Assembly (NCBI RefSeq): GCF_008326425.1
Contig: NZ_AP018929.1
Coordinates: forward strand, 1,316,875 to 1,380,874
Direction: 5' to 3'
Origin: Sulfuracidifex tepidarius
GTDB taxonomy: Archaea; Thermoproteota; Thermoprotei_A; Sulfolobales; Sulfolobaceae
DNA: 64,000 nucleotides
Part shown: in pieces, positions 23,947 to 64,000 of the stretch
Position numbering within the stretch: the first letter of the stretch is position 1
How the letters are laid out: each line of letters begins with the position of its first letter
Program-made: the position numbers and the translations under genes
The notes under the pieces: model-generated
Told to the model about the DNA's origin: nothing
Databases searched by the model: none
What the model saw: the letters and a program-made list of their open reading frames with translations, nothing else

Positions 23947-24504
23947 TCAAGTCTTTTTTATTAAGATTATCGAGTAACCTTTAACTCGTTTTACCACAGT
24001 TATATTACCGAAGAACTGGGAAAACTCCTTTTTTACGTTCTCCTCTCCTCTATATACTACCAACTGCACGTGACCTTCGTCCTTCAGCTTCTCGTGGGCA
24101 CACTTGGCGAACTTCCTTAAGAAATCCACCCCTTTCGAGAGAGGGGGGTTTGAAAATATTGCATCGAACTTCAGGTCAGTGGCTGACAGTACGTCGCTCT
24201 TTATCACCTCCACCCTATCGTTAACCCCGTTTATCTCCACGTTCTTCTTGGCTAACTTCACTGCGTTAGGATCAACATCCATCATCACTACCCTCAAGGA
24301 CGGGTTAGAGAGCGCTACATATATGCCTATGGGGCCGTAACCACACCCGACGTCAGCCACAAGGCCCTCTTTGGGTATGACCAAGTTCTCGAGGAGAGAC
24401 CTGGTACCCGTGTCCACCTTACGCTTTGAGAAGACCCCAGCGCTGGAATGGAAAGAAAGAGGTATACCGTTGATCACGTCAAGCACTACTTCTATTGCCT
24501 TCAC
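23947..24504 (-). CDS. RsmC-like class I SAM-dependent RNA methyltransferase
   Basis: A 185-residue methyltransferase of the N2-guanine rRNA methyltransferase type. Motif I is VADVGCGYGPIGI (about residues 48-60), the ribose acid is in MMDVDPNAV, and motif IV is FSNPPLSKG (about 111-119), the NPP(F/Y)-type motif that flips an exocyclic amino group. FHSSAGVFSKRKVDTGTR before motif I is characteristic of RsmC-type enzymes. It starts with GTG 24504 and overlaps the cbf5 end by 26 nt, in an operon L14e-cbf5-methyltransferase, all ribosome- or RNA-related. Confidence 0.85.
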   Translation of the reverse strand: MKAIEVVLDVINGIPLSFHSSAGVFSKRKVDTGTRSLLENLVIPKEGLVADVGCGYGPIGIYVALSNPSLRVVMMDVDPNAVKLAKKNVEINGVNDRVEVIKSDVLSATDLKFDAIFSNPPLSKGVDFLRKFAKCAHEKLKDEGHVQLVVYRGEENVKKEFSQFFGNITVVKRVKGYSIILIKKT

Positions 24505-25520
24505 CCCACTTTCTAGGATAAACGTCTCTATCGATGAAAACCCTATCAGTGGTTGCCACTTCTCCCTTGTCGACTTTGGCGAGCCTCCTGTAGTCTACTA
24601 ATGCCTTTCCGACCGATACCAGTTCTCCCTTAGTGGTTATTACACATACCAGGTCGTCTTTCTTGAACTCCTGAAAACCCACAACTCCTGGAGCTGTCAA
24701 CTTAGCGCCGTAAGCTATTGCGTTAACTGCGTTGTCGTCAACCATTATTTTGGGGATCCCGCAAGTAGCTATCTCCATTGGCATGACCATTCCCCTAAGG
24801 TAGGTCTCGTCCTTGCAGTTCTTCCACATATACACTGCCTCGGACACTTCGTGCATGGTGACCAAGTTCCTCTCGTCGAATATCCCCGTCCTGGTCCTTC
24901 TCAACTCCCTCATGTGGGCTCCGTAACCGCTCATTAACCCCACATCGTGACATATCTTCCTCATGTAAGTCCCGTGTTCTGACACTATCCTCATGAGCAC
25001 CATCTTCCCTTCGATCTCCTGGACTTCTATTTCAAATATCTTCCTTGTCCTTAACCTTCTGCTCACCGAAGACCTCACTGGGGGCCTCTGGTATATCTTC
25101 CCTTTGAACTTCGAAATCACCGACTTGAGTTTCTCCTGATCGAAGTCTGAGTGTACCTGCATGACGCACTCGTACTCCTTCGTTGATTCAGACACGTAGT
25201 GCATTATCTTGGTAGCGTTCTCTAAACCTACGGGTAGAACGCCGGTGACTTTGGGATAACCCCGCTCATCGCTCTAGGGTCCCTCCGTGGCCTACCCTAT
25301 CAAGAGAAAGCATCCCCTTGAGCCAAAAAGCCACCTCGTGGCTTGTAGGGCCGGGTGGCTTATCCACGTTGATTATCCCGTTCCTTATAAGTAGGTTCAT
25401 TTCCCTCTTGTCTGGGTATGAACCGTGACTTTCATCTATCTGAGGCTCAACCTTGAACGTCCAAGGGTTATTATAAGAACAAAAAGAGTCAATTGACTGG
25501 ATGAAGTTATAAGGCTTCAT
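24479..25520 (-). CDS. cbf5: Cbf5 (archaeal TruB-like) pseudouridine synthase, interrupted by a 16-nt pre-mRNA intron
   Basis: Catalytic subunit of H/ACA sRNP, which converts guided uridines of rRNA to pseudouridine. The frame is broken: exon 1 (25520-25274) ends after HGGTL and exon 2 (25257-24479) resumes with PKVTGVLPVGLENATK. Removing 25258-25273 restores GGTLDPKVTG and a 341-residue protein. The catalytic D83 codon GAT is assembled across the junction (G from exon 1, AT from exon 2). N-terminal NVDKPPGPTSHEV, the core HGTYMRKICHDVG, and the C-terminal PUA domain (from about residue 255, IPKIMVDDNAVNAIAYGAKL) are all intact. Exon 1 begins one base after the L14e stop. Confidence 0.94.
25258..25273 (-). 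other. Archaeal pre-mRNA intron with bulge-helix-bulge motif in cbf5
   Basis: On the transcript strand the intron reads AGCGAUGAGCGGGGUU. It folds with its flanks into outer helix GGGA/UCCC, 3-nt bulge UUA, 4-bp central helix CCCU/GGGG, 3-nt bulge AGA and a short GC/GC stem closed by GAUGA. Cutting between the second and third base of each bulge (AG^A, UU^A) releases exactly 16 nt and restores the frame. This is the substrate form of the archaeal tRNA-splicing endonuclease. Introns in cbf5 are known from crenarchaea; this one is very short. Confidence 0.9.
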
Positions 25521-25521
25521 C

Positions 25522-25812
25522 CTAAATCACAGTCATCTTCGGCTTTATTGTCTCCTTCATGAAGTCAAGTAAAGAAGCCTGCTGAAGCGCGTTCTTGACC
25601 TCGTCGTCACTGGCTCCCTTCTTTATTTCTACTTTCTTATCTGTTGCGTCTATGTGAAGTATGTTGCTCCTCTTCCTCTTCACTCCGTTCACGTCCTTAG
25701 GCCCGGTAATCAGGACGAAGTTCTCGTCTATGATGTCGACTATGACAACCTTTTTCCCTGCATCTCTTCCCCTGGTTTTAACGCAGATTCTACCTACTTC
25801 TATCACTGCCAT
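25522..25812 (-). CDS. rpl14e: Large-subunit ribosomal protein L14e (eL14)
   Basis: A 96-residue KOW-type ribosomal protein. The N-terminal beta barrel begins MAVIEVGRICVKTRGRDAGK and continues KVVIVDIIDENFVLITGP, with RKRSNILHIDAT before a helical tail. The start is ATG 25812; the seven extra upstream codons lack conservation. It sits one base before cbf5. In many archaea eL14 and cbf5 are neighbours, consistent with a ribosome-assembly operon. Confidence 0.93.
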   Translation of the reverse strand: MAVIEVGRICVKTRGRDAGKKVVIVDIIDENFVLITGPKDVNGVKRKRSNILHIDATDKKVEIKKGASDDEVKNALQQASLLDFMKETIKPKMTVI

Positions 25813-25856
25813 GATTTGATCTACCCATCTCATCTGATTTCTGGGTAATTTTAAGC

Positions 25857-63529: not shown

Positions 63530-64000
63530 TTACATTTTTACCCATTTAAACATTGTGTACTTTATGAGTTCCTTTTTGAGATCTACCATAGCTAGAACCA
63601 AGGTCTTCCTAGTGCTATGAGATACCCTGCCGAAACTCATGAGTTCTAAAGGAGATATCTCGTTGTTTATATCCAACGCTATGACTACGAAAGGAGCATG
63701 CTCTATGCCCGGACCCATCGTGTAAACAGCGAAGTCTGCTCCGAACTTGATTCCAGACCTAACGATGAACTTCTTTTTCCTTAAATCCGAGTACACAGCG
63801 TAAAGCACATTGAACCTATCTACAGTAGCCAAAGCATGTTTAGTCAGCTCATCCTTAGTCACTTTCTTCCCATCTAAGTTGACTATCTCTAACCCAAAGT
63901 TTTCCATTAGGTATAAGGATTCCACAAAGGATAACTCTAAAGGCCTGTCGACCTCCTCAGGTCCCTTTGGCTTAGGAACTCCCAGAGGCTTACCGAAGAA
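63530..64000 (-). CDS. endA: tRNA-splicing endonuclease catalytic subunit EndA, 5' end outside window
   Basis: Cleaves bulge-helix-bulge introns in tRNA, rRNA and some mRNAs. The frame is open to the edge, so the gene is truncated at its 5' end; the visible part starts within FFGKPLGVPKPKGPEEVDRP. The catalytic triad is visible in the C-terminal domain: Y in FAVYTMGPG, H in IEHAPF and K in SHSTRKTLV. RFNVLYAVYSDLRKKKFIVR and GIKFGADF match Sulfolobus EndA, which works with a non-catalytic partner as a hetero-tetramer and accepts relaxed and mRNA motifs. This matches the cbf5 intron found 38 kb away. Confidence 0.94.
   Translation of the reverse strand, partial: FFGKPLGVPKPKGPEEVDRPLELSFVESLYLMENFGLEIVNLDGKKVTKDELTKHALATVDRFNVLYAVYSDLRKKKFIVRSGIKFGADFAVYTMGPGIEHAPFVVIALDINNEISPLELMSFGRVSHSTRKTLVLAMVDLKKELIKYTMFKWVKM

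Follow-up and report, generated by a model that had tools for sequence, protein, structure and literature searches.

The 64,000-nucleotide stretch of the Sulfuracidifex tepidarius genome analyzed here (the window) carries on its minus strand a gene for the pseudouridine synthase Cbf5, which in the list of the window's open reading frames (ORFs) is broken into two frames. The upstream frame (25520-25266, minus strand) encodes 84 aa, ends in ...GHGGTLER, as the original prediction had it for the unspliced mRNA, and stops at a TGA within a 16-nt insert, while the downstream frame (minus strand) terminates at 24479. Read along the minus strand from 25520, 82 codons lead to GGA GGG ACC CTA (GGTL), followed by a G, the insert, and then AT CCC AAA GTC ACC. 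Deletion of 25258-25273 (AGCGATGAGCGGGGTT) rejoins the two frames, as had been predicted, into one full-length Cbf5 frame of 341 aa in which the junction reads GHGGTLDPKVTGVLPV and the motif GGTLDP is complete. Exon 1 (25274..25520, minus strand) comprises 82 codons and the first base, G, of the Asp83 codon, and exon 2 (24479..25257, minus strand) supplies the AT of that codon, then 258 codons and the stop. The Asp of GGTLDP (codon 83), built across the junction, is the catalytic residue of the Cbf5 family, and the insert lies inside its codon, G/A(T or C). The protein of the spliced frame aligned with the structure of an archaeal Cbf5 (2aus_C; E 2.3e-96) from residue 31 to residue 333, and the alignment crosses the junction without a gap. 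Downstream, an ORF that by eye is methyltransferase-like (window 23947-24504, minus strand) has its GTG start inside the 3' end of cbf5, an overlap of 26 bases; in S. metallicus, too, a downstream coding region partly overlaps cbf5 (PMC2738675). A small ORF (25522-25833, minus strand) that by eye resembles ribosomal protein L14e ends one base ahead of the cbf5 start, which suggests that these two are co-transcribed.

A frame that is broken in the DNA could be the mark of an assembly error or of a decayed pseudogene, and the original prediction had itself named an assembly artefact as a way in which it might fail. The genome is complete, however, on one contig of 2,560,765 bp, and a single TruB-family gene was found in it. 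Sister species of the same genus have homologous inserts at the same point, of 17 nt (AGCCTCACGGCGGGGTT) and 22 nt (AGCTGCTGTAAATGGCGGGGTT), and the intron ends, AGC...GCGGGGTT, are common to these and to the 16-nt copy of the window. Both exons are, moreover, under strong purifying selection, with dN far below dS in the comparison with the nearest sister species (0.031 and 0.732 for exon 1, 0.033 and 1.311 for exon 2). Set against such evidence, an artefact or a pseudogene is scarcely credible. Within the genus, loop length has changed while the intron ends stayed.

The 16 nt (25258..25273, minus strand) sit in a bulge-helix-bulge (BHB) element (25253..25283, minus strand) with an outer helix of 4 bp (GGGA/UCCC), a central helix of 4 bp (CCCU/GGGG), 3-nt bulges (AGA and UUA), and an inner helix of 2 bp (GC/GC) closed by a 5-nt GAUGA loop, and by this geometry the predicted cut sites fall on the exon borders. 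The structure is as the original prediction had drawn it, and no fold of the 31-nt element GGGACCCUAGAGCGAUGAGCGGGGUUAUCCC has a lower energy than this strict BHB, either at 37 °C (-10.3 kcal/mol) or at 70 °C. The prediction had given the deletion as exactly 25258-25273, to which one correction applies: sequence alone does not fix the splice point to the base, since the intron and exon 2 share an initial A and a slide to 25257-25272 yields an identical mRNA; it is the BHB rule that selects 25258-25273. The same ambiguity is common to 114 of the 121 introns read in the comparison below. A fold of 56 nt was no better than those of shuffled sequences (z -0.14), with its helices slightly shifted; folding alone therefore proves nothing, and frame repair and comparison were relied on instead. 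In a count over both strands, the exact BHB geometry with a 16-nt gap turned up 6 times among the window's 127,920 positions, a rate of about 5 per 100,000. It is therefore unlikely that this geometry and a frame-repairing deletion coincide by chance, and the comparison with relatives decides the matter.

The original prediction had called for a comparison of cbf5 intron lengths across Sulfolobales. The protein encoded by exon 2 was used to search 214 genomes of the host's order, an approach far better than a scan of genome contigs with the same protein, which returned one relative only. The junction was readable in 144 genomes, with an intron of 16-57 nt present in 121 and absent in 23. All 31 Sulfolobaceae cbf5 genes examined have an intron (16-31 nt) at the same codon junction, although the search imposed the exon borders and the identical position is in part true by construction, the independent support being the BHB pairing. 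Every one of the 113 distinct introns has its first two inner pairs, where shuffles reach at most 99 and 103, and the inner pairs of these introns covary by compensatory G-C, A-U and U-A exchanges. A complete central helix is present in nearly every intron read. In one genome, L131 (G013), the cbf5 intron has these BHB ends too and is 57 nt long, above the published maximum of 44 bp.

These comparisons also bear on a rival reading in which ribosomes get past the 16 bases by programmed frameshifting or bypassing and make the full protein with no splicing at all. The two cbf5 frames are indeed offset by 16 nt, and early cbf5 cases were, according to Yokobori et al. (PMC2738675), confused with translational frameshifting. 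Yet the insert ranges from 16 to 57 nt among species and falls into all three length classes modulo 3 with the pairing geometry kept, a simple frameshift would add residues to the protein and not read the GAT codon, and spliced cDNA has been reported in relatives (PMC2738675); we give this explanation next to no chance.

The intron has not been kept everywhere in the order. In two whole families of the set none of the genes read (12 and 5) has an intron. Also intronless are six genomes in two otherwise intron-keeping families (L090, L122 and L141, that is, G027, G028 and G030; and L082, L078 and L140, G070-G072), and among these cases are three from a single genus in which the remaining members carry introns of 36-40 nt. 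On a tree of 102 proteins, a short one of 120 columns and with the added loss cases mostly draft genomes, intron presence requires 5 changes, at least 4 of them being forced by well-supported branches. Yokobori et al. had concluded that the intron was lost at least twice, in Pyrodictiaceae and Ignicoccus (PMC2738675), and it is likely, as a lead from these sequences, that there were more than the two published.

The genes for the splicing machinery are all in the genome. The window itself holds, at 63530..64000 on the minus strand, an ORF with a PF01974 match for the catalytic (alpha) subunit of the EndA endonuclease (181 aa, its N-terminus just past the window end). In its alignment with the archaeal EndA structure 2cv8 (E 3e-61), the Tyr, His and Lys positions that should form the active site are retained. 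Elsewhere in the genome there is a gene for a beta-like, structural EndA subunit, with matches to chain A of 2zyz and chain A of 3p1z, and the genome also encodes an RtcB ligase. The crenarchaeal (alpha beta)2 endonuclease processes canonical as well as relaxed BHB motifs (PMC6379350). No intron-containing tRNA was found in the window by an intron-aware ARAGORN search.

The 16-nt insert is thus almost certainly a shortened form, spliced via its BHB, of the cbf5 pre-mRNA intron that is conserved in crenarchaea, and what counts against this is an inner stem of only 2 bp and a 56-nt folding energy that is ordinary next to shuffles. By analogy with published relatives and with what is generally known of archaeal splicing, the cbf5 pre-mRNA would fold around the junction into the BHB, the heterotetrameric EndA (alpha2beta2) would cut both 3-nt bulges between their second and third bases, and RtcB would join the exons, an event that would restore both the GAT codon of the catalytic Asp83 and the reading frame for use of the spliced mRNA. 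Translation of unspliced mRNA would stop after 84 residues, at the TGA in the intron, and could not give an active enzyme. A literature search for RNA-seq or circular RNA of the cbf5 intron turned up nothing that looked relevant by title and abstract, and a review of tRNA introns had nothing on cbf5. For annotation, the consequence is that unless the intron is recognized, gene-finding programs will give the cbf5 of these archaea as split or truncated.

The inner stem of the window intron is the shortest of the 121 read, the next shortest having 3 bp, and its two pairs are exactly those kept in all 113 distinct introns, which suggests that these two pairs may be the minimal EndA substrate. An extension of this idea, that a 2-bp stem and 5-base loop (a 9-nt hairpin in a 16-nt intron) might be as small as an EndA-spliced mRNA intron can physically become when no tRNA body surrounds it, and that the genus might show the last steps of intron shortening, is one that we consider unlikely. 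So short a stem could also mean that the intron, while real, acts as a regulator, its inefficient splicing limiting Cbf5 output. This would add to the reading as a spliced intron, and Yokobori et al. did propose that cbf5 introns act in regulation (PMC2738675), but the BHB of the window copy is not the least stable (24th of 121 in a rough energy ranking, from the same script whose BHB-minus-MFE energy gaps over all introns were set aside because it handled broken outer pairs crudely), and we think such regulation improbable.

That cbf5 introns are known in crenarchaea, as the original prediction stated, is documented by Yokobori et al. 2009 (PMC2738675), who described them in Desulfurococcales and Sulfolobales. 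The spliced intron proposed here is like theirs in its gene, its BHB and its cuts between the second and third bulge bases, here a matter of geometry only, and also in the split catalytic codon, which is seen directly in our sequence as G/AT and whose disruption by the insertion is stated in the same paper (PMC2738675); what differs is the species. There, a spliced D. mucosus cDNA is mentioned as an unpublished result (PMC2738675). The prediction called 16 nt very short; this length equals the lower limit of the published range of 16-44 bp and has precedents. In Table 1 the introns of Desulfurococcus mobilis and D. mucosus are already given as 16 bp long, and that of Sulfolobus metallicus as 22 bp (PMC2738675); ours is one further species at the minimum. 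The published record, then, already covers the intron's position and length, its mechanism and the split of the catalytic codon, and what is new is small: an inner stem shorter than any other read, and an intron length that varies within a genus (22, 17 and 16 nt). The other 16-nt intron read (L068) has an inner helix of 3 bp and a 3-nt loop, as against 2 bp and 5 nt in the window copy. Archaeal tRNA BHB introns share the endonuclease and the motif, and as their sizes run from 11 to 175 nt (PMC2738675), 16 nt is not extreme; they differ in that the cbf5 host is an mRNA, with no tRNA body to aid recognition. The putative 12-bp introns of an archaeal virus genome (Peng et al., cited in PMC2738675) are a further likeness, being very short insertions into coding genes of archaea as well, but, as far as that citation describes them, those keep the frame, which the cbf5 insert breaks, and their splicing is putative.
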